From assembly GCA_003218945.1 (NCBI GenBank), contig QHPE01000168.1, forward strand, positions 5,111-52,665: a DNA stretch of 47,555 nt, written 5' to 3'. Source of the DNA: Verrucomicrobiota bacterium. GTDB lineage: Bacteria; Verrucomicrobiota; Verrucomicrobiia; Chthoniobacterales; UBA10450. Below the pieces are notes generated by a model, which saw only the letters and a list, made by a program, of their open reading frames with translations, was not told the DNA's origin and ran no database searches. Below, piece by piece: positions 1 to 14,792 of this stretch. The position numbers and the translations under genes were made by a program. Positions within the stretch are counted from its first letter, which is position 1. Each line of letters opens with the position of its first letter.

Positions 1-512
1 GCCGTCGGTGCCGATGGGCTCGCCGCTTTCATGGGCGAAGTCGCAGGTGATGCAGCAACTGCTTGCGCAGGCGGCGGACTCGACGCTGTCGCCCCTTGTG
101 GCGCAGGACTGGCGCTAGTCGGCGGCGCTGGAGATCCCTCCTCCTGTGCAGGTGCGCGCGCGCCGATGTTCGCGAGGTCCTGTCCCATTCGCATTTTTCC
201 AAGGAATACCGGGCGTTCGAAAATGTAATCGCGCGGTGCGCTGCGTCGGTTACCCCACTTCCGCTCAATATCGTTCGCTACGTAATCCGGGCGGACCTGT
301 TGACTGTGGCAGTAAACGCACCCGTTCGCCGCGTACACGCGCTCACCGCGGTGGAACATCCCCGATTGAGGTTGCGGATAGATGTCTGTTCCTTCCTCGT
401 CAGACTCCGGATTGAGATGTCCGATTTGCCAGTTTGGGATCACGGTGAGCCCCACCCACGAAAACGCGAACGTGCCGAAGATTCCAAGAAAAAGAGGAGC
501 CAGTCCTTTCAT
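1..512 (-). CDS. ccoO: cbb3-type oxidase mono-haem cytochrome c subunit (CcoO/FixO-like), 3' end outside window
   Basis: The first 170 residues are visible; the frame stays open to base 1. The start ATG overlaps the stop of the preceding subunit I gene (ATGA at 511-514), so the two are translationally coupled. The protein opens with a membrane anchor (about residues 3-25) and then one c-type haem motif, CVYCH, followed by SQQVRPDY, as in the CcoO haem domain. A DLANIG segment follows, and from about residue 125 a long Pro/Ala/Ser-rich stretch begins where canonical CcoO continues with folded sequence. In C-type haem-copper oxidases CcoO carries electrons to CcoN. Here its partner CcoN homologue lacks the oxygen site, so the role may be plain electron transfer. 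The family is clear; the function with this partner is inference. Confidence 0.85.
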   Translation of the reverse strand, partial: MKGLAPLFLGIFGTFAFSWVGLTVIPNWQIGHLNPESDEEGTDIYPQPQSGMFHRGERVYAANGCVYCHSQQVRPDYVANDIERKWGNRRSAPRDYIFERPVFLGKMRMGQDLANIGARAPAQEEGSPAPPTSASPAPQGATASSPPPAQAVAASPATSPMKAASPSAPT

Positions 513-1990
513 CAGTGGCCTCCGGAGATCTCCGCTTCAACAGGATTAAGGAACGTCGGCACCGTCGATGTGCGGCCCAATCCCAACAGCATCAGACCGA
601 AGTGATAGGCGAAAATAAAATGCGCGACGGTGAGCAAAATCCCGGCAAGACTGCGCCCGCGAAGATAGGGCAACACTGTTTCGATGCTCTCGCTGAACGA
701 CAGCGCAGGGTTTTGCATGTCCGCGCCTTGCAGAAAACCGCCGGCTAGCAGCATCAGTATCATCAACCCGATGCCGTAAGCCGACGCCCAGAAATGCAGC
801 TTGATCAACGAAGCGTAACGCCATTCACGGCCAACCAGTCGCGGTACGATGTAGTACATCGAACCGAAAATGACCATGGTGAAAAACGCGTAAAGGCCGA
901 GATGCGAATAGGCGATGCTGGCGTCGGTGAACTGGACGTAGCTGGCGACGGAGCGCAGCGAGATCAACAAGCCAACCACACTAAAGACCGTGTAGGACAT
1001 CGCGCCGAACACGGTGAACCGAAGCGTAGGGCTGTAACGCATAAGCGGGAAATAACCCTGCATGGTCATGTGATGATTGAGTCCCACAGTAGCGACTGGG
1101 ATCATCGCCAGGATTGTCGCAGCGATGCTGGCGGTAATCATCCACGCTGGAAACGGGCCATCCACGAGTCGCGTCATTCCCGTCCAGCTTGAGAAAAGCG
1201 CATAGGTCCAAAAACCAATCGTCGCCAAATGATAGCTATACACCGGACGTCCGATGACCTTGGGAATCATGTAATACGCCGAACCGAGGGCGATCGCACC
1301 GAACCAAAGAAAAAGCAGATTGTTTGAATACCACCATCCGATTGCCGATTGCAAAACGCCCTGCACTGGCACGACAAACAGCATCAATTGTCCGGCCGCA
1401 TATAACCACGGGAACCAGAGGAAGGCGCCCAGCAGATACCATTGTGTGATGTAAATTTGGTCGCCGCGCCGATGCCGGAACATGACCACCGCCCACGAAC
1501 CCATAAGCGTGTAGGCGACAAACAAAATGACCGCTACGTAACGCGGAAACTCGAGCCATTCGAAACCGGTGCTATCGCCTAGCAGGATTGCGCCTACACC
1601 TATTAACACGCCGATGTTCCAAAACGCAGCGCCCGCAACGAGCAAAAGTGGAAATCGCAAAACCGTCCGACACAACCGCGCCATCAACCAGATGGCGGTG
1701 CCCATTCCCGCCATCGAGGCCCAACCATAAACCATGATGTTCATGTGAGCCGGGCGCACCCGTCCCCAGGTAAGAAAACTGACGTCCCCAAGCAGATCCG
1801 GCGAGTGCAGCTTCCAAGAAACGAATCCCGCCAGCAGCGTGCCCAGAATGAGCCACGCAATCGCCGAAGTATAAAACATCAGCACAGGCACGCGCGTTGA
1901 TGCGTCGATGTATGCGCGCTCCAGTTGCTCCGTATCGCCGGCAGCAGCGGAGACTTCTGGTTCTTTCAATGGAATTCCGGTGGCGTTCAT
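512..1990 (-). CDS. ccoN: cbb3-type oxidase subunit I homologue lacking the CuB/haem b3 site
   Basis: A 492-residue polytopic membrane protein that follows the CcoN pattern throughout: WGRVRPAHMN, GWWYSNN, RPVYSY, and a late FTDASIAYSHLG segment. Compared with my recollection of Pseudomonas stutzeri CcoN, the low-spin haem b ligands remain (H82 and H363). The first CuB His (WWYGHN) is N223, the His-His pair (GPHHLH) is T273-R274, and the haem b3 proximal His (GHVH) is Y361. The Tyr of the cross-linked pair is also absent. The frame is intact, so this is not decay. The product should bind one low-spin haem but cannot reduce oxygen by the known mechanism. It sits between a small membrane protein and ccoO, downstream of ACIII. 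A simple ccoN annotation would mislead. Confidence 0.88.
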   Translation of the reverse strand: MNATGIPLKEPEVSAAAGDTEQLERAYIDASTRVPVLMFYTSAIAWLILGTLLAGFVSWKLHSPDLLGDVSFLTWGRVRPAHMNIMVYGWASMAGMGTAIWLMARLCRTVLRFPLLLVAGAAFWNIGVLIGVGAILLGDSTGFEWLEFPRYVAVILFVAYTLMGSWAVVMFRHRRGDQIYITQWYLLGAFLWFPWLYAAGQLMLFVVPVQGVLQSAIGWWYSNNLLFLWFGAIALGSAYYMIPKVIGRPVYSYHLATIGFWTYALFSSWTGMTRLVDGPFPAWMITASIAATILAMIPVATVGLNHHMTMQGYFPLMRYSPTLRFTVFGAMSYTVFSVVGLLISLRSVASYVQFTDASIAYSHLGLYAFFTMVIFGSMYYIVPRLVGREWRYASLIKLHFWASAYGIGLMILMLLAGGFLQGADMQNPALSFSESIETVLPYLRGRSLAGILLTVAHFIFAYHFGLMLLGLGRTSTVPTFLNPVEAEISGGH

Positions 1991-2505: not shown

Positions 2506-3708
2506 TCAGTTGACGGTTGTAAGGGATTCGATCAGGCGTGGGTCTCGGACCGGAAAAAGCGAAGTTCGTGGCACAAGCCGCAGATAAACAAATGCGAGGG
2601 TTGTGCCGATCGCGACCAGGCAAAGCAAATCCCAGATACTCACGTGCACGCCTGTTCCGTGTAACGCAGGTAAAACGATCAGATACATGTCCAGCATTTG
2701 CATAAGGATCATCCAGCCGGCGAGGATACTAAGCTGGTGCGGATTCTTCTTTATGGATTGCAATAGCAAAATCCCGAATGGCACAAAGAACCGGCCGATC
2801 ACTAGAAGCATGCTGAGTGCCCACCACGACTGCGTATTTCGCGCTAGGAAAAATTGGGTCTCCTCCGGAATGTTCGCATACCAGATGAGCATGTACTGAC
2901 CAAAACCGATGTAGGCCCAGAAGACGCAGAACGCGAGCATCCATTTCCCCATGATGTGATAGTGCTCGAGGGTCACGATCCCCTTGAGGTAACCGGCTTG
3001 TCGCAAAGCAGTGATCACGATCACGAGCAACGACATCGAGCTGCCCGCTGCTCCGGCAAAGATGTACACCCCGAACATGGTTGAGTACCAGCGGTAGTTC
3101 AGGCTCATCATCCAATCGAATGCGCCAAACGTGAGACAAAGGGCAAACAGCGGCAGGCTGATGAACGACACTCTGCGCATCCAAATCGTGAACAGCGGAT
3201 TTCCGTCCTTATCCTGGCGCGCGGAAAATCGCCGCAGCAATTGCGAGGCGATGATCCAGAAAACAAAAAAAATAATCGCGCGGATTAGGAACCAATGGAG
3301 GTTGAGATAAGCGCGTTTGGAATCCAGCGTCGCCTCGTGCCCCGGCGGAATATCCATCCACGAATAGAGATGCCGGCGCAGCAGCAGGATTGGAATGAAA
3401 AAAACTGCCAGCACGCCTAACAAAACAGCGATATTTTCCAGTTGACGCCGCACAACTACGGACCAGTCGGCGTCGGTAGCGTGGTGCACGATCGTCCAGA
3501 AAAAGCAGCCTGCGCAGAGCGTAAAGAAGAACACGAATGCAAACAGCCATGAATAACTGAACTGATGCGGATCCACGAACGCGCCCACAAGGCAGAGAAC
3601 CAGGCTCACAACGGCAACCGCGCCGAGGAGAGTTGAAAGCCCTGTAAATCGACGGCTGTCGAAATATTCGCCTTCCGGCATCGGTGGAGTATCCAAACGC
3701 TCGCTCAT
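2506..3708 (-). CDS. actF: Alternative complex III subunit F (NrfD-like integral membrane protein)
   Basis: 400 residues with about ten predicted membrane helices and no cofactor motif, as expected of ActF, the smaller of the two NrfD/PsrC-like quinol-binding subunits of ACIII. Start and actE stop overlap (ATGA, 3705-3708), indicating coupling. Motifs such as FDWMMSLNYRWYSTMFGVY and YHIMGKWMLAFCVFWAYIGFGQ are typical of the family. In ACIII it packs against ActC and helps form the membrane core where quinol is oxidised. Position and hydropathy make the assignment secure. Confidence 0.92.
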   Translation of the reverse strand: MSERLDTPPMPEGEYFDSRRFTGLSTLLGAVAVVSLVLCLVGAFVDPHQFSYSWLFAFVFFFTLCAGCFFWTIVHHATDADWSVVVRRQLENIAVLLGVLAVFFIPILLLRRHLYSWMDIPPGHEATLDSKRAYLNLHWFLIRAIIFFVFWIIASQLLRRFSARQDKDGNPLFTIWMRRVSFISLPLFALCLTFGAFDWMMSLNYRWYSTMFGVYIFAGAAGSSMSLLVIVITALRQAGYLKGIVTLEHYHIMGKWMLAFCVFWAYIGFGQYMLIWYANIPEETQFFLARNTQSWWALSMLLVIGRFFVPFGILLLQSIKKNPHQLSILAGWMILMQMLDMYLIVLPALHGTGVHVSIWDLLCLVAIGTTLAFVYLRLVPRTSLFPVRDPRLIESLTTVN

Positions 3709-4436
3709 TTTGCTGGAGCCGCCGCCGGCGGCGGTGACGCCGGTTTGTCCAGTTCCGCGCGGTGATCTTCCGGAACATCGGCAAGCGTCGCGTGCTGGCT
3801 GCGTTGCAAGGAGCGCAGATAAGCAATAATCGCCCAGCGATCCGCGACGACGATATTCGGCCCATAAGGCATCATCGTGTTTTTTCCGTTCGTAATCGTG
3901 TTGAAAATCTCACCGTCAGACATTTTGCGGATCCGGTCGTCCTGGAGCGAAACCACGGTGGCCAGGCCGTATTGCTTTGTGATCCCGTTTCCAGCAGCTG
4001 CAGCGCCGTGGCACATTGCGCATGTGATGTTGAACCGCTGCTGGCCGCGCTCCATCAACTCGCGCGTTACTGGCAACGGGATCCCAGTTCCCCATTGGTC
4101 GCCGAATTTGCCAGTGTTGAAGTAGTCGGTTCCGGCACTGAAAGCGACCCGTGTGTGCGCTTCTTCCGGCGCGTCTCCTGTCATGCCGGGCGGCATGTCC
4201 TCGGTTTTCGGCTTCGGCATTTCGTAGCCGACGGGGACCGTGCCAGCTACTGGCAAACGCGGGCCGCGTCCATCGGCGAAAAAATCCAGCGGCGCTTGTG
4301 CACGCACTTTTGGTTGCCGCACCATGTCAGGAAAAACTTCCGGCGGCGGCTGTGTGCTCTTTTGCCCGCGAAAGCCGAAGACGGCGACTATCGCGATCAT
4401 GCACAGGACAAAAATAACAAAGAATCCGCGGAGCAT
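3705..4436 (-). CDS. actE: Alternative complex III subunit E, mono-haem cytochrome c
   Basis: 243 residues with one N-terminal signal anchor (about residues 2-21) and a cytochrome c domain in the second half. The haem motif is CAMCH at 139-143; a Met in GKNTMMPYG (about 188-189) is the likely sixth ligand. ActE is the mono-haem c subunit that would receive electrons within ACIII or hand them onward. The C terminus is Pro/Ala-rich. It follows actD by only 2 bp and overlaps actF. Confidence 0.92.
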   Translation of the reverse strand: MLRGFFVIFVLCMIAIVAVFGFRGQKSTQPPPEVFPDMVRQPKVRAQAPLDFFADGRGPRLPVAGTVPVGYEMPKPKTEDMPPGMTGDAPEEAHTRVAFSAGTDYFNTGKFGDQWGTGIPLPVTRELMERGQQRFNITCAMCHGAAAAGNGITKQYGLATVVSLQDDRIRKMSDGEIFNTITNGKNTMMPYGPNIVVADRWAIIAYLRSLQRSQHATLADVPEDHRAELDKPASPPPAAAPAK

Positions 4437-4438
4437 AT

Positions 4439-4996
4439 TTAGTCCTCGTGCACGATGGTGATATGCTGCCCGCCGGTTTGCTCTAGCAGCTCGTACACGC
4501 CGTTTTCCGTAAACCGCGGGTCGCGAGCTTCGATTGCCAGGAAAAATCCGTCATTGGTCACACGGCTAAACCGGTCCCAGTTGAACATCGGATGGTTCCA
4601 GCGCGGCAAGCGATTCATGATTTGCCACGCGAAGAACGCTGAAAACGCGGCGAAAAGCACCGTGAGCTCGAACATGATCGGGAAAAAGGCTGGAACGGTG
4701 AAGAAACCCCTTGGTTTCCCGTGCACAGTGAGGGGGTACAGAATTGATGACGGACCAAATTCGATAAGCGCCGCGGTAAGGAATCCCGAAATTCCGCCAA
4801 ACAGAACCCAGCCGCTCAGCCACGATTTGCCGATCCCCATCGCGTCGTCCATCCCGTGAATTGGAAATGGCGAATACACGTCCCAGCGCCGGAAACCAGC
4901 ATCGCGCACGTGCTTTGCGGCTTCGTAAAGCGCGGCGGCGCTCGGATACTCCGCGGCCATGGCATAAACCGTGTGACCGTACGGAGTGGTTATCAT
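4439..4996 (-). CDS. actD: Alternative complex III subunit D (DUF3341)
   Basis: 185 residues. The soluble N-terminal part ([31 protein letters not shown]) and the two central membrane helices are the hallmarks of DUF3341/ActD. No cofactor motif is present. It is an ACIII membrane subunit on the side of ActC/ActF. Its start overlaps the stop of actC by 4 bp (ATGA at 4993-4996). Length is normal for the family. Confidence 0.92.
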
Positions 4997-6444
4997 CGCG
5001 TGCGCTCCTTTCCGCCCGCAGGGAGCGATTCGATTTCTGGCGACTCCCCGTAATGCGGGTCCGCCTCGGGTGTGGCTGTCTTCACTTCCGACATCGCAAT
5101 CATCGGAAGGAAACGGATGAATAGAAGGAACAGCGAAGTGAAAATTCCAATCGTGCCGATATAGGTCCAGATATCAACCCAAGTGGGGTAATAAACTCTC
5201 CATGAAGATGGCAGAAAATCGCGGGCCAAACCGCCTGCGATAATGATAAAACGCTCAAACCACATGCCGGCGTTGACGCACATGGCGACGAAGAAAACGA
5301 CTAATACGTTATGCCGACACCAGCGGAACCAAAACAGTTGCGGCGAAAGCATGTTGCAAAAGAGCATTCCGAACCACCAGTACCACCAGTAAGGGCCGAA
5401 AACGCGGTTCCAAAATGCGTAGCGCTCGAAATGGTCGCCGCTGTACCACGCTATGAAAAACTCCATCGCGTACGCGTAACCGACGAATGAGCCGGTCAAG
5501 AGAATGACCTTCGCCATTTTATCGACGTGCTGCGGCGTGATGACGTCCTGCAACTTGAAAATCGCGCGCGCGGGTAAGAGCAGCGTCAACACCATGGCGA
5601 AGCCGCCGAAGATTGCGCCTGCGACGAAGTAAGGCGGAAAGATCGTGGTGTGCCACGTCGGAATAACCGTCGAGGCAAAGTCGAATGATACGACGCTGTG
5701 CACTGAGAGAACCAGCGGCGTAGAAAGACCGGCCAAAAGCAGATACGCCATTTCGTAATGGCGCCAGTGCCGATTCGAGCCGCGCCAGCCGAGAGCGAAA
5801 ATTCCAAATAGAAATTTCCTGATCCGCGTGGTCGCGCGATCGCGTAGCGTCGCCAAGTCCGGTACCAAACCAGTGTACCAGAACAAAACCGACACGGTAA
5901 AATAGGTTGAGACCGCGAACACGTCCCACATGAGCGCGCTGCGAAAGTTTTGCCAGATACCCCAGTTGTTCGGCATCGGCGCCAAATACCACGCCATCCA
6001 GAACCGGCCGACGTGGATCCCTGGGAAAATCGCCGCGCAAATAACTGCAAAAAGCGTCATCGCCTCTGCGGAACGATTGATCGACGTACGCCACTTTTGG
6101 CGAAGCAAAAACAAGATCGCTGAGATCAGTGTGCCGGCGTGTCCGATACCGATCCAGAAAACGAAGTTGGTAATGTCCCAGGCCCAGCCGACCGGGATCT
6201 GATTTCCCCATGTGCCGACGCCGGTGGAAATCTGATAGCCAATGCAAAAAATGCCGAAGGTCGCGGCGCTTGCAGTAATGGTGAAAATCACCCACCACCA
6301 GCGCGGGGCGGGTTGTTCCACCACTTCGGAAATCCGCTGCGTCAGCCAATTGAAACTGCGCCGGTTTAACACCAGCGGAACATGGGCAATTCGCTGCCTG
6401 GCCTCTTCAACGCTTGCAGGTGCTGCTGCTGGTGCTCCGTCCAT
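4993..6444 (-). CDS. actC: Alternative complex III subunit C (NrfD-like quinol-binding membrane protein)
   Basis: About 483 residues from the ATG at 6444, which I prefer because longer upstream starts would run back into actB. It has roughly ten membrane helices with conserved segments such as [23 protein letters not shown] and [10 protein letters not shown]. This is the larger NrfD/PsrC-type subunit of ACIII, believed to carry the quinol oxidation site. It lies 13 bp after the end of actB and overlaps actD. The C-terminal tail is soluble and acidic. Confidence 0.93.
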
Positions 6445-6457
6445 TTTTAAGTCGTGC

Positions 6458-9400
6458 TCACTCCGGTAACGCCTCGACCACACTTGCGATCCCAATATCC
6501 GTCGCGTCAGGCATGTCCGGATTGGGGTTGCGGAGATGGGCGAGATAACTCGTTCGCGGAATAACGTTCAAATAGTCGAGGATCCGGTAATTGCGGTCCT
6601 GTTGTTTCATCTTCGAGACACGGCTCTCCGGGTCCTTGATATCGCCGAAAACAATCGCTTCCGTCGGGCACGCTTGCGCGCACGCGGTCGTAAACGAATC
6701 GCGCGCGATGCGCTTGTCAGGCGAAGCGCCTGCCCGCGCCAGCGCCGCGATCTTTGCTTCCTCGATGCGTTGCACGCAGTAGGTGCATTTCTCCATGACG
6801 CCGCGCATGCGCACAGTAACGTTAGGATTCTTCTGCATCTTCATGGTGTCGGGCGCGCCCTTGGTGGTTAGCGGTGCAAAATATTCTTCGTAAATGTTCA
6901 ACGCGCCCACGAGCTTTCTCTTCCCTACGGGACGCTGGTTGTAATCAAAATAATTAAACCGCCGCACTTTGTACGGGCAGTTGTTCGAACAAAATCGAGC
7001 GATTGTAAGCCATGACGTTGAGCCCATCTTCGCTGTGGACGGTGGCATTGACGGGGCAAACGGTCTCGCATGGAGCGTTCTCGCAATGCTGGCAGGGCAT
7101 CGGCTGAAATACCATCTCGGGATGCTCTGGCCACACTCCTCGGTCCTGATTAAACGGCTCGCGGCTCGCGTAGTAACGATCGATGCGGAGCCAGTGCATA
7201 ATGCGGCCATGTGCCACTTGTAGCTTTCCGACAACCGGAATGTTGTTTTCCGCCTGGCAGGCGATCACGCAAGCGTTGCACCCGGTGCACACATTCAAGT
7301 CGATGCTCATTCCCCATTGTTGCGGCGCGTCCAATGGCGGATGGGTGTAGAGGCTCGGCGGTGGATGCGGTAATTCTTCTTCGCCGGGAACCTTTTTCGC
7401 GAAGTCATTATTTTCGCGATAGCCCTCCAGCGTTCCTTCACGAACAAGACCGCGGCCTTCGATGCTGAAATGCTCCTGGGTGATCGAGAATGGATAAGTG
7501 CGGCCGACTTTCGTCACCTGCACGCTTTCAATCCCCTTCGCGCCGACCACAGCAACATGCGGATTCGCTGCTGTTCGCAAAAAATAGCCGTTAAACCCGG
7601 CCTGCTCGGTAAGCCCCGGGTTTTCCTTCAGGTTGGCGCCTGCATACGGAAGTTCGAGAAATTGCGGCATCTTGCGCGCCCAACCGAGCGTGACGGTAAC
7701 GGAGTTGTCGGCATGCCCGGGGGACACCAGCGCTGCAATGACAAGCTCGCGTTTCATCACGGTCCCGCCGGGGCTCTTTTCATTAATCGCGATCTGCAAC
7801 AGATCGCCCGTTTCGACGCCGAGCCCTTCTGCGTGCGCAGGACTGATCAATGCCGCATTGTCCCAACTCAGTTTTGTAACTGGGTCAGGTAGTTCCTGGA
7901 GCCAGCCGTTGCTCGCGTAGCGGCCGTCGTCCATTCCGTAGCTGCCAGTCAACACAATCTCCGGCGATTCAGGCGTAGGAGGCACCGAAAGCGACCAGGA
8001 ATCACGCGACAGAGCTGCGGTTGCGCCGGCATTGAACGCGGCAGGTTGATCGGCGCTTTGAACGTGCGCAGCAAAACCGTCATGCAAAAAGCGCGACCAC
8101 ACTGTTTGAAAATCGCCTGCCGGATTCGTTAGGCGAAAGGTTTCCTGTACCAGCTCCGGGCCTTGCGGTTTAGGACCGCCCAGTAGCATATTCATCAGCT
8201 CAATCTCACTCAGGCCACCGAAAAGCGGGAGGATCATCGGTTGAATCGACAAATAATCGCCGCTGGCAGTAAGCGCATCGCCCCACGATTCGAGATAATG
8301 GTCATGATAACCAAGCCGCAGAATGTTTGGGACCTTCTTTTGCAATTCCGCCCAATCGAGAGGCTCCTTTGTTTGTAAATCTTCTACCAATCCGCGCGGC
8401 GCGTTATAGACAGGGTCGCCGCCGAAAATGAACAGCTGTTTGATGTGGCCTTCATTTATGTCGGTTGCGAGCTGAGCGATGTCGATTGTCTTGGGATTGC
8501 GGGGAATCTGACGCACCACCAGCGTCTGGCCGACATTTTTCAGCGCAGCATTGATTGCATAAACCAGCATCTGCACTGCGACCGGCTGTGTCGGGCCGGC
8601 GAGCACCAAGCTCGCTCCCGGTTTTGCCATTAAATCAGCTGCAACCCCATCGATCCATTGCTGGTCGAAAGTGTTTGGCGTGCTTTGTAAATTTCCAACC
8701 AGAGCGCCGAGACTGGGATCATTCGTTCCCGCGAGAATTTTCGTCGCGAGTGCATGCGCGAATGCGGGCATCTGGCTGGCCGGGCAACGCAATCGATGAT
8801 CGGCCATCGCACCTGTAAGCGTAAAACGATGCTCCACTACATACAGCCGGTTCATGCTGTCCTTGGACGCGCTTACGCGCCGGCGCGAAGTGAAACCGCG
8901 CACTGTTTCGAGGTCGCCCTGACCGCAATCGAGAAAATCGCTTTCCAGCGCAAGAATTACATCCGCGCGATCCAGTTTCGGCAATAACCTCGCGTTCGCG
9001 CCGAAAGCTGTTTGCATTGCAATGTTTGCTTCCTGACCAAGTCGCGGCTCATAAATGCACCATCGCATGCCGGGGAACTTTTTTTCCAATTCTCCTCGAA
9101 GACGCTCTCGCGTGGGAGAATTCGTTTCCTCGACCAAAAACGCGACGCCGTCGCCGTTGCCGCTGAGCATCGTGTTATGAAGTTCTGCAAGGAATTTCTC
9201 GAAATCTTCGACCGCGCTTGTTTTCCCTTTGTGAACAAAACGTTTCGACCGGGTAGGGTCGTAAAGGTCGAGGATCGATGCTTGAACGAAAGTGTCAGTG
9301 GCGCCGCCGCTTGCCGGATGCAGCGGATTTCCTTCGAGTTTTATCGGGCGCCCATCGACGGTCGTAGCGATCAGTGGAATGCCCCCTGTGCGACGCGGCA

Positions 9401-9704
9401 TCGCGGTCGCGTAGTAGAGAAATTTTCCGGGAATCGTCCACTCGACATTTTTCGTGAACGGAACGAGGTGCAACTCCGGCCTGCGGCAACTCGTTAGGCC
9501 AACGCCTGCCAGCGCCATTGATGCGCTCATTAGTTTGAGAAAATCGCGCCGCGACCATTCATCGCCATTCAGTTCCGCAGCGCCGGCGGGAAACTCGCGC
9601 TCCAACCACTGTCGAAATTCCGGCGTATCGTTTAACTCTCCGAGGCTGCGCCAGTATTTTGTGCCGGTAGACGGCTCAGGCGGATGGTGAAAAACGCGTT
9701 TCAT
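6458..9704 (-). pseudogene. actB: Alternative complex III subunit B (molybdopterin-oxidoreductase-like plus Fe-S domain), frameshifted
   Basis: The start is the ATG at 9704, overlapping the actA stop (ATGA). Order: DUF-type N terminus, twin-arginine signal SRRDFLK (about residues 51-57), a large molybdopterin-oxidoreductase-like domain, then a ferredoxin-like domain with [13 protein letters not shown] and [15 protein letters not shown]. Frame one ends at 6954 just after NVMAYNR. The remaining 180 codons ([13 protein letters not shown], then [15 protein letters not shown] and [11 protein letters not shown]) continue in another frame to 6458. The normal text NVMAYNRCIGTRxCSNNCP shows that about 11 bases, including one cluster Cys, are missing near 6998. 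Restoring 11 bases rejoins the frames. The break lies inside a cluster-binding motif, so it is not a natural ActB1/ActB2 split. Either a real inactivation or a consensus error. Confidence 0.88.
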
Positions 9705-10426
9705 CGGTGGCACCCCTGACAATTTGTAGGTGGAGTAATTTTCCAACGCTCTTTCAGCGTCTGGCCGATCTCGGATTGGGTCAGCCGTTTCTTCTTCGAA
9801 AAATCCTCATGCGTATCACTTGGCTGGCCGTACTCGGCGACAAACTCCTCCGGCTTCACATCGTCTGGCTTCCAATCGAGATTGAAAACCTGATCTTCGG
9901 GCCGCAAATAATTTTCCGGGTGACGGTGGCAATCCAGACACCAGGCCATGCTGTGCGGCTTGGCGATGTATACCGTCGACATGTGGTTCACCGGACCGTG
10001 GCAGCTGAAACAACTGATGCCCCGATTCACGTGTGCCGCGTGATTGTAGTAAACGTAATCAACAGTGCGATAAAGCCACACCCACTCGACGGGCTGACCA
10101 CTTTTCCAGCTGTCCTGCACCGGTTGCAACTTTGGATTGTCCTTTGCCACCTGCGAGTGGCAGTTCATGCAGGTCGCTGTGTTGGGAATGTTCGACTGCG
10201 CCGCCACATCCACGAAGCTGTGACAATACCGACAATCCATCCCCAGTTGGGTCACATGAATATCATGCGGAAACGGCACCGGCTGGATCGGTTGGTATCC
10301 GACTTTTGTGTACTTCGGCGTGGCGTAATACCACGTAGCCCCGGTCAAGCCACAAGCGATCACAATCACGCAGACGATCATCTTGAGCGGTATCCAATTC
10401 GTCCAGCGTGGAAAGAAATTGGCCAT
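9701..10426 (-). CDS. actA: Alternative complex III subunit A, penta-haem cytochrome c
   Basis: 241 residues with an N-terminal membrane anchor (about 14-34) and five CxxCH motifs: CRYCH (65), CMNCH (86), CFSCH (139), CLDCH (163) and CQGCH (236). Five haems and first place in the operon identify ActA. It is anchored at the periplasmic face and forms the haem wire of ACIII. The last haem motif is one residue from the C terminus. It is the first gene of the operon; the promoter must lie in 10427-10697. Confidence 0.95.
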   Translation of the reverse strand: MANFFPRWTNWIPLKMIVCVIVIACGLTGATWYYATPKYTKVGYQPIQPVPFPHDIHVTQLGMDCRYCHSFVDVAAQSNIPNTATCMNCHSQVAKDNPKLQPVQDSWKSGQPVEWVWLYRTVDYVYYNHAAHVNRGISCFSCHGPVNHMSTVYIAKPHSMAWCLDCHRHPENYLRPEDQVFNLDWKPDDVKPEEFVAEYGQPSDTHEDFSKKKRLTQSEIGQTLKERWKITPPTNCQGCHR

Positions 10427-12992: not shown

Positions 12993-13879
12993 TTAATACT
13001 TCAACGCGAGTTCAGACAGGTAATACAACGCCACAGAGCCGGTGATTTTGAGACTCTGCGCACTGATTTTATCCAGCGTATCATCCGCGGTATGCCACCA
13101 GGCGTAATCAAAATCAATGATATCGATCGTTGGAATCCTAATGGCGTTCAGTGGCGCGTGATCATCGATGAGGTCACGGTCCAGGTAGCTAAAGTAGTTT
13201 CGTAGCTTCAGCGCTTCAGCCGCGGCAAAAACGTCGCGCACCATTGCGGGGGGTGAATCTGCGGGCAGCGTGATGTCGAGTGAACGGTCACCGATCATAT
13301 CGAACAATATCCCTCCGCGAAATTGCTTCCCTCCATCGGCTTCGAGTTGTTTAGCAAAGTAGCGGCTTCCGTACAGCCCATCTGTTTCCGAAAAATTTTC
13401 GTAGGCCTCTTCGCCATCGAAAAACACGAGCTCGATTTTCCTGGCCATATTAGGAGACCGGTGCTGGAGCCTCCGTCGTTCGCTCCGACAAACCGGATCG
13501 CATCGAATAGTTTGGTATCGTAATGCGAACACAACAAAAATGAAGGGGCGGCAGCATTTCCATCGCCGGAGAACCGCGCGATCAAGTTTACGAAGCGTAC
13601 TTTCCCTCGCGGCGTCTCTTCGGTAAACCCTTGACGTGTCACCTGCCAACCGGAGTGTCGTAATTGCGCCTCGATATACTCTCTCGCTTTTTCAATCGCG
13701 TCCGAGCCGACCGGGTGCGGACCTAAATCGACGAGGTGCTGAACATGAAGGAGAGCTTTCTCACCCGAGAATTCCTCCCAGATCTTCGTCTCGGCGGCGC
13801 GTGAACTTCCCGCACAAATGGTCAACGTGACGACCAGCCGGAGTAATGCACTGTTGGAGTATCGGAGCAGTGAATTCAC
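12993..13879 (-). pseudogene. M28-family aminopeptidase, interrupted by a deletion
   Basis: The likely start is GTG at 13879, 17 bp after parB; residues 5-25 look like a signal peptide. Peptidase M28 motifs are present in order: SHYDTKLF and GANDGGSSTG in the first frame, then ARKIELVFFDGEEAYENF, a central Asp region and a WWHTADD segment in the second. Between STGLL and NMARKIEL the family normally has a helix of about a dozen residues. Here the text passes directly from CTCCT into AATATGG near 13450 and the frame changes. Arithmetic of the two frames requires a loss of 1 mod 3 bases. An extracellular zinc aminopeptidase if restored; as read, inactive. Confidence 0.8.
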
Positions 13880-13895
13880 CCGGAAACGACTCCCA

Positions 13896-14792
13896 TCACT
13901 CCGTTGTCTCTGGGAGCCCCAAGGCGTTAACGACGCGCTGGAGATCGTCGGTTCCGTAATACTCGATCTCGATTCGGCCGCGCTTGTCTCCGTGATGGAT
14001 CGTGACATGGGTGGCCAGATGCTGTTGCAGCCGGTTTTGTAAATCTTCTACCGCCGTTGCCGTGGCACCCGACTCAGAGACAGCACGCCTGGCCTTTCGC
14101 CGTCCGCGTCCGATGCCGAGCAAACGTGCAACCATCCGCTCCGTGGAACGCACGGTGGCGTTGCGCCGCAAAACTGTTTCCGCAGCGAGTAATTGTTCGT
14201 CAGGGACTTTCAACGCCAGCAACACCTTCGCGTGGCCGACTGAAATCAAATTCTGAGTCAACCAGATCTGCACCTGCGGATGCAGATCCAAGAGCCGCAG
14301 CGCGTTGGTCACAGCGGCCCGGCTACGCCCGACTTTCAGCGCAATGTCTTCCTGCCGCAGGCTAAATTCGTTAGCCAATCTCGCATAGCCTTGGGCTTCT
14401 TCGATTGGATTGAGATCGGCGCGTTGCAGGTTTTCAATCAACGAAAGCTCGAGCACCTCCAGGTCGTTCGCGGTGCGAATTATGGCGGGCACCGTGATCA
14501 GGCCGATTTCCTGCGCTGCACGAAACCGGCGCTCCCCGGCGATCAATTCAAATCTCGCGCCACCTTGACGGACGATAAGCGGCTGAATGATTCCGTGCTG
14601 CCGAATGGAATCGACCAGTTCTTGCAACGCTTCGCGCCTAAAATCCTTTCGCGGCTGTAACGCGCTCGGGACAATGCTCGCCAACTGAATTCGGTGTACT
14701 CTCTCGCCGGGGTCCGCTCCATCTCTGGGCGCGGGGATTGCCGGCGTACCTATCAGCGCGCCAAGACCTTTCCCCAAACCAGAGCGTGCCAT
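13896..14792 (-). CDS. parB: ParB family chromosome partitioning protein
   Basis: About 298 residues from the ATG at 14792, where MARSGLGKGLGALIG gives the standard ParB N terminus that contacts ParA. The CTPase domain follows with LQPRKDF and the ELIAGERRFRAAQ motif, then the helix-turn-helix region (RQEDIALKVGRSRAAVTNALRLL) and a C-terminal dimerisation domain. It binds parS sites and loads the partition complex near the origin. I see no ParA gene; the upstream direction carries a divergent gene instead. No perfect parS palindrome was noticed in the window. Confidence 0.93.
   Translation of the reverse strand: MARSGLGKGLGALIGTPAIPAPRDGADPGERVHRIQLASIVPSALQPRKDFRREALQELVDSIRQHGIIQPLIVRQGGARFELIAGERRFRAAQEIGLITVPAIIRTANDLEVLELSLIENLQRADLNPIEEAQGYARLANEFSLRQEDIALKVGRSRAAVTNALRLLDLHPQVQIWLTQNLISVGHAKVLLALKVPDEQLLAAETVLRRNATVRSTERMVARLLGIGRGRRKARRAVSESGATATAVEDLQNRLQQHLATHVTIHHGDKRGRIEIEYYGTDDLQRVVNALGLPETTE

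Follow-up and report, generated by a model that had tools for sequence, protein, structure and literature searches.

What is an oxidase subunit kept for once its oxygen-reducing centre has gone? The question is raised by a stretch of 47,555 nucleotides from a Verrucomicrobiota bacterium of the UBA10450 lineage (contig QHPE01000168.1), which was analysed as a whole and is called the window here. In it, a gene set for alternative complex III (ACIII) runs into a gene for a homologue of CcoN, subunit I of the cbb3-type oxidases, denoted ccoN* (protein CcoN*). The initial annotation had proposed that this protein has lost its catalytic ligands, is maintained by selection, and serves purely to carry electrons or to interact with a quinone. 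With moderate confidence, we favour a different role: CcoN* would be a non-catalytic descendant of cbb3 subunit I, a membrane scaffold holding the c-type haems of CcoO and CcoP by ACIII, with either an oxidase of the A type or a soluble carrier as the next electron acceptor.

The open reading frame (ORF) at 512–1990 on the minus strand encodes 492 aa and was open along its whole length. CcoN* matched Pfam COX1 at E 2e-58 and NCBIfam ccoN at E 1.3e-47, the latter with 162.8 bits, under the equivalog cut-off of 583.15; two fully liganded, ACIII-linked CcoN proteins that were scanned also fell under it (216.3 and 234.3 bits). The best solved relative was CcoN of Pseudomonas stutzeri (3mk7_A, E 2.5e-39), aligned over residues 36–463, for whose ligand residues we assume the customary functional roles. 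Both histidines of the low-spin haem b pair were kept (H60 = H82 and H347 = H363). The three CuB histidines were absent (H207 replaced by N223, H257/H258 by T273/R274), as were the proximal histidine of haem b3 (H345, now Y361) and the cross-link tyrosine (Y251, now S267). On this alignment CcoN* has lost its oxygen-reducing centre. An AlphaFold model, built from a 34-row alignment that included fully liganded relatives, had a predicted local distance difference test score (pLDDT) of 84.2 and a predicted template-modelling score (pTM) of 0.87. It matched the 3mk7 chains with template-modelling (TM) scores of 0.84–0.86 over the query (root-mean-square deviation 2.2–2.3) and NorB chains with scores of 0.75–0.78, so that CcoN* is nearer to CcoN than to NorB by sequence and by fold. 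An unrelated fold was ruled out by the 3mk7_A sequence match together with these structure matches. The CcoN homology, the clean frame and the individual replacements read in the initial annotation were all confirmed.

The replacements were shared within the genus. A search of 58 genomes, including the window's own, gave a match in 50, and in 31 of the 35 genomes of the window's genus; 27 genus copies were read, the remaining four matches being short fragments without a locus. Ligand strings, written in the order of positions 82, 363, 361, 223, 273, 274 and 267, were HHYNQRS in 21 copies and HHYNTRS in four, and two copies were truncated before position 82. All 27 copies carried N223, T or Q at 273, R274, Y361 and S267, and H82 occurred together with H363 in each of the 25 copies that showed both positions. 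Close relatives with the full ligand set, which would have pointed to a fault in this copy, had been named beforehand as a possible objection; the genus copies were instead concordant throughout. The maximum-likelihood (ML) ratio of non-synonymous to synonymous rates (omega) was 0.046 in 22 genus copies, the median by the Nei–Gojobori method (NG86) was 0.047 (231 pairs), and genus CcoO gave 0.071 (206 pairs), values that are approximate because the median synonymous divergence was near 1. Omega was 0.04–0.23 in small groups without one or both low-spin histidines, two saturated pairs yielding no value, and 0.01–0.19 in fully liganded groups. The gene ccoN* is under strong purifying selection, as had been supposed.

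A survey of ACIII clusters, which had been suggested as a check, found that degenerate CcoN recurs across the class. The gene order ActABCDEF–small protein–CcoN–CcoO–CcoP was repeated across order and class, with CcoN either full or degenerate. Copies were typed as FULL (fully liganded), LSonly (both low-spin histidines kept, no metal-site histidine), NOLS (at least one low-spin histidine missing) or PART (partly altered). The term haem-less would be exact only for NOLS copies in which both low-spin histidines are gone, and a few NOLS copies keep one or more metal-site histidines (L205 HIFHQHG, L213 AKQHHHG, L273 AFNHHDA), none of them the full set. In a collection scan with at least 564 matches, the top 80 comprised 31 fully liganded copies, 48 with none of the four metal-site histidines and one partial copy (HHHHSHC). 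The class survey gave a match at E ≤ 1e-60 in 177/237 genomes, canonical CcoN counted in. Among 124 typed loci from this survey and kin, picked for family coverage and not at random, 74 were NOLS, 40 FULL, eight LSonly and two PART. The seven ligand columns were invariant in 41/41 FULL rows and scattered in the 70 NOLS rows, in which residues including W46, G76, G89, W124, W220, P243, F260, P281 and G418 were kept at 97–100%. Nor did a substitute conserved histidine appear in these 70 rows: the sole column with at least 50% histidine, 399, is also histidine in canonical CcoN. Position 256, which we take to be the K-channel serine, was Ser in 40/41 FULL rows and Ala in 11/11 LSonly and 50/70 NOLS rows.

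Several further observations concern CcoN variation. Residue 277, beside the former CuB histidine pair, was Asp in 11/11 LSonly rows and Gly in 41/41 FULL rows. Two partly altered types were seen: HHHHSHC (L122, L155, L318), with one CuB histidine and the tyrosine replaced, besides which G270 has no COX1 match at E ≤ 1e-20; and HHHRHHY (L038, L144), with one CuB histidine changed to Arg. Elsewhere in the phylum, in family f67, a fully liganded CcoN stands beside an ORF with seven CXXCH motifs and a CcoO-like gene (L265–L269); neither ActB nor ActC nor ActD was detected alongside. A genome of the window's family, G036, carries a degenerate ACIII-operon copy (L041) and a separate fully liganded one (L030/L052), which lies beside a CcoO-like gene in a stretch where no Act genes were seen.

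The number of losses was estimated from two trees, both quick searches with long branches. In the first, with only fused canonical CcoNO as outgroup, degenerate rows were scattered at the base and formed no single clade, so the loss count depends on the outgroup. In the second (133 rows, nearer outgroups), a branch with support 99 had 80 degenerate rows together on one side, and on this grouping many separate losses of the catalytic centre were set aside. With regain excluded, the metal site was lost once in an ancient event and independently in L193, with two partial cases (L122, L038). L193 (AQQAVNG) comes from G217, given as 100% complete, and its nearest relatives, of the same family, are fully liganded. 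The low-spin pair was missing in eight maximal clades, again with regain excluded, several of the forks being weak (support 23–58). Several of these clades lie inside the window's own family (QY three times, QQ twice, YD, HY and AH once each). The window lineage is a middle stage, in which the catalytic centre is gone and the low-spin histidines are kept.

The partners of CcoN persisted. Act genes lay upstream in 5/5 LSonly, 61/61 NOLS, 1/1 PART and 25/27 FULL rows with at least 3 kb of sequence. A CXXCH-containing ORF lay close downstream in 5/5 LSonly, 62/63 NOLS, 2/2 PART and 30/30 FULL rows with at least 1.5 kb, and at least two such ORFs in 4/4, 57/58, 1/1 and 25/27 rows, respectively, with 3 kb. 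The sole NOLS miss in the CXXCH count, L208, has both CcoO and CcoP on separate reading of the locus. CcoP-type ORFs without CXXCH (L105, L109, L127, L148) are probably cut, as these loci stop about 1.3 kb or less past ccoN. A-type COX1 genes were counted with one query (>150 bits, same strand) in rows with at least 6 kb downstream, and were found in 3/4 LSonly, 14/24 NOLS, 4/18 FULL and 0/1 PART rows. The difference between degenerate (17/28) and FULL (4/18) rows gave a Fisher p of 0.016, uncorrected for relatedness. Another COX1 gene (E < 1e-100) was present in the genome for 5/5 LSonly, 67/69 NOLS, 34/38 FULL and 1/2 PART copies.

One family, f20, evidently consists of verrucomicrobial methanotrophs. 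PmoA/AmoA-type genes were found in 12/12 of its genomes searched and in 0/3 other genomes, and we take it as established that pmoA-bearing Verrucomicrobiota are methanotrophs of the Methylacidiphilum type. An ACIII-linked CcoN was matched in 10 of the 12 genomes; G064 gave none, and G206 was not among the matches listed. Seven copies (G142 AVQDAHA, G121 ATQDAHA, G125 AIQDAHA, G112 ATQDAHA; G071, G079 and G102 all SVFESHS) have lost both low-spin histidines, three of the four metal-site histidines and the tyrosine, with His 274 staying in its aligned position, in an alignment that is less certain because the copies are very divergent (L262 matched the nearest solved CcoN at E 3.3e-5). All seven loci have an A-type COX1 gene directly after CcoP. 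Apart from this CcoN, the COX1 hits in the 12 genomes comprised an A-type group (~1e-130), a group near 1e-77, one member of which was ba3-like (L305, E 4.5e-118 to 3eh3_A), and a group near 1e-58, one member of which was NorB (L310, E 1.1e-86 to 3o0r_B). The remaining hits were sorted by score and length only, one of 485 aa in G064 being left unclassified, and no canonical CcoN was recognised among them. Passages of PMC8498564 and PMC6688271 report a cbb3-type oxidase adjoining ACIII in verrucomicrobial methanotrophs, and for Methylacidiphilum PMC6688271 there links a high affinity for oxygen to the cbb3 genes next to ACIII. Synteny suggests that this published gene is the pseudo-CcoN, and we think it quite likely that the published cbb3 oxidase does not reduce oxygen. 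Should the metal site of the methanotroph CcoN be non-functional, high oxygen affinity could not be inferred from these genes and would have to come from another oxidase.

Under the scaffold reading, the ancestor would have been a working C-family oxidase encoded together with ACIII (ActABCDEF–small protein–CcoNOP). One large lineage would have lost the CuB/haem b3 site, after which the low-spin haem b site would have degraded in many of its branches; CcoN* would have been kept as a membrane scaffold in physical association with ACIII, against which it would hold CcoO and CcoP with their c-type haems. Menaquinol-derived electrons would exit ACIII via ActA/ActE, run along the CcoO/CcoP c-haems, and arrive either at the adjacent A-type (caa3) oxidase or at a soluble carrier such as cytochrome c. 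CcoN* of the window lineage may still bind one low-spin haem b, in a structural or vestigial role. The ACIII–caa3 supercomplex of Rhodothermus marinus, as described in parts of PMC5928083, is a precedent for a direct link; in Flavobacterium johnsoniae, ActE was dispensable for transfer to aa3, according to passages of PMC8552683.

Several observations weigh against this account. No A-type COX1 was nearby in 11 of the 28 degenerate loci with 6 kb downstream, nor on the window's contig within 3.8 kb past ccoP; elsewhere, on different contigs, the window genome has two more COX1 genes that look A-type. Other oxidases were more frequent in degenerate than in FULL genomes, but not significantly so (72/74 vs 34/38, p = 0.18). 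In two genomes with degenerate CcoN, G233 (93% complete, 3.3e-30) and G272 (98% complete, 6.9e-26), the one COX1 match at E ≤ 1e-20 was weak and presumably represents CcoN*. The G233 contig breaks about 2.3 kb past ccoN, where the A-type COX1 begins in its genus mate G163. G272 speaks against caa3 as the only partner, and its case is unexplained. Conservation can, moreover, reflect a role in assembly, regulation or proton coupling.

Other explanations were weighed against the same data. CcoN* could carry electrons via its single low-spin haem b, or serve a quinone, beside ACIII. The joint retention of H82 and H363 in the genus fits this, as does the usually joint loss of the pair in the family (QY, QQ and YD against one HY and one AH), which would be expected if the haem were genuine up to its loss. 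Copies without the pair nevertheless fill the same operon position in many families with CcoO and CcoP kept, and a lone haem b without haem b3 would, as we understand the cbb3 layout, be a dead end. Since at least one low-spin histidine is gone in 70/81 non-redundant degenerate rows and the c-haem motifs of CcoO and CcoP persist, a b-haem carrier is not the shared function. The pure electron carrier or quinone partner of the initial annotation therefore did not survive as a general explanation; we judge it quite unlikely for CcoN*, and it could at most be special to window-like copies, with putative haem or quinone binding. Unlikely, too, is a composite view that one entire family of subunit I proteins of the haem-copper oxidases no longer works as oxidases and now forms permanent ACIII subunits, that the methanotroph cbb3 therefore does not reduce O2, and that the one haem b left in the window lineage takes part in a novel path for electrons or quinone linking ACIII with caa3. 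CcoN* might also translocate protons as a membrane subunit without cofactors, on the model of the half-channels suggested for ActC/ActF, a role consistent with polar residues N305, H399 and R384, kept at 81–89% in NOLS rows; the change of the presumed K-channel Ser 256 to Ala in most degenerate rows, and the lack of an internal redox step as driver, make it very unlikely.

We give scarcely any credence to the idea that CcoN* still reduces oxygen or NO, at an unusual metal site that other residues would form. Superfamily members do vary at active-site positions, such as Gln for Tyr in eNOR (in the part of PMC8756737 concerned), and the change from Gly 277 in FULL to Asp in LSonly rows lies near the former CuB pair. 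All four metal-site histidines are, however, gone in the window copy; no conserved substitute histidine, which would have overturned the initial claim, was seen; and the only acidic column at or above 80% in the 70 NOLS rows is D29. That the gene is a pseudogene in decay, or an artefact of sequencing or assembly, can practically be dismissed. Ligand residues scatter freely in many lineages, and one stop fell inside the match for five genomes among the matches listed (G176, G041, G050, G224, G157), but the CcoN ORF was full length in four of these (L171, L047, L048, L200), G224 lying outside the reading. Omega for ccoN* was low, single-contig genomes (G071, G102, G112) carry degenerate copies, and concordance among the 27 genus copies refutes an artefact for the genus.

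The scaffold reading was set against known systems. With C-family (cbb3) CcoNOP, the window system shares CcoN fold and homology, a CcoO-like partner and the low-spin pair, but it is without the CuB, haem b3 and tyrosine ligands, and its CcoP-like protein has one CXXCH motif, whereas textbook cbb3 CcoP is dihaem. The ActABCDEF operon, with an A-type oxidase next in part of the loci surveyed, is shared with the ACIII–caa3 supercomplexes of R. marinus and F. johnsoniae; here, in contrast, genes for pseudo-CcoN, CcoO and CcoP separate the ACIII genes from that of the A-type oxidase. NorB/eNOR share the superfamily fold, but CcoN* is closer to CcoN and has no metal-site histidine. The same adjacency of ACIII and C-type oxidase genes is described for Opitutaceae and verrucomicrobial methanotrophs in passages of PMC8498564 (citing Refojo 2010) and PMC6688271. 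It is reported there as a C-type oxidase, whereas CcoN of the seven pmoA-bearing genomes has lost most ligands; that of an Opitutaceae record (L131) is fully liganded. The cluster adjacency is thus already known, and what is new is that the oxidase subunit of such an ACIII/C-type cluster has turned non-catalytic. In agreement with the initial annotation, no prior description of a ligand-less CcoN was found in the literature searched, which consisted of partly consulted open papers, with subscription papers, Refojo 2010 included, outside its scope.

Within one large group of bacteria, many members that live in soil or consume methane thus keep, in a respiratory gene cluster, an oxidase subunit without an active site, and often without haem-binding residues as well, probably as a membrane scaffold. 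Papers and annotation name these genes cbb3 oxidase and derive physiology from them. The copies also form a natural series within one conserved operon, from the full set through loss of the centre to loss of the low-spin haem site, so that both the structural role of subunit I and the path of electrons from ACIII to the oxidase can be tested directly.

The operon was read on the minus strand as ActABCDEF–small protein–CcoN–CcoO, with the CcoP-like gene beyond the window edge (table). The ActABCDEF set beside ccoN* was recognised from Pfam matches for ActD and NrfD-type ActC, from the cytochromes ActA and ActE, and from order for ActB and ActF; the name ActF also leans on what we presume to be the usual ACIII architecture. 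The ATG of ccoO shares one base with the stop of ccoN* (TGATG), in keeping with the predicted coupling of the gene to ccoO beside ACIII. The operon does not end in ccoN*, as had been stated, since ccoO and then a ccoP-like gene follow. The ccoO frame leaves the window at its left end and enters a run of 26 N, a scaffold gap (L002 5085–5110), and the CcoP-like monohaem cytochrome (L002 3818–4678, same contig) follows outside the window. Pfam and NCBIfam scans gave no match for the small protein, a homologue of which lies between ActF and CcoN in many relatives, though not all.

Table. Features of the ACIII operon in the window, with positions in window coordinates.
Feature	Position	Strand	Description	Basis
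Pseudo-CcoN (CcoN*), 492 aa	512..1990	-	homologue of cbb3 subunit I; CuB and haem b3 ligands and the Tyr replaced, His82/His363 of low-spin haem b retained	Pfam, NCBIfam, structure matches
CcoO-like	3..512	-	monohaem cytochrome c (CVYCH)	FixO E 6.8e-11; CcoO chains best E 1.2e-7
Small protein, 160 aa	2022..2504	-	apparent N-terminal membrane helix, Pro/Ala-rich tail	
ActF	2506..3708	-		name from operon order; no Pfam match
ActE	3705..4436	-	monohaem cytochrome c	name from order and cytochrome c match
ActD	4439..4996	-		PF11821 ActD, E 7.9e-54
ActC	4993..6495	-	NrfD family	PF03916, E 1.8e-19
ActB region	6458..9746	-	two ORFs in different frames (6954-9746, 6458-7234)	name from operon order
ActA	9701..10426	-	multihaem cytochrome c	cytochrome match; five CXXCH in counted homologues

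ActB was split over two frames near its iron-sulphur part and is one long ORF in relatives such as L053; the two-frame arrangement is a frameshift, in the assembly or in the genome. A second apparent split was seen at 12993–14008 on the minus strand, where a protein resembling M28 peptidases, the family to which we assume the product belongs, seemed to be divided over two overlapping ORFs in different frames.
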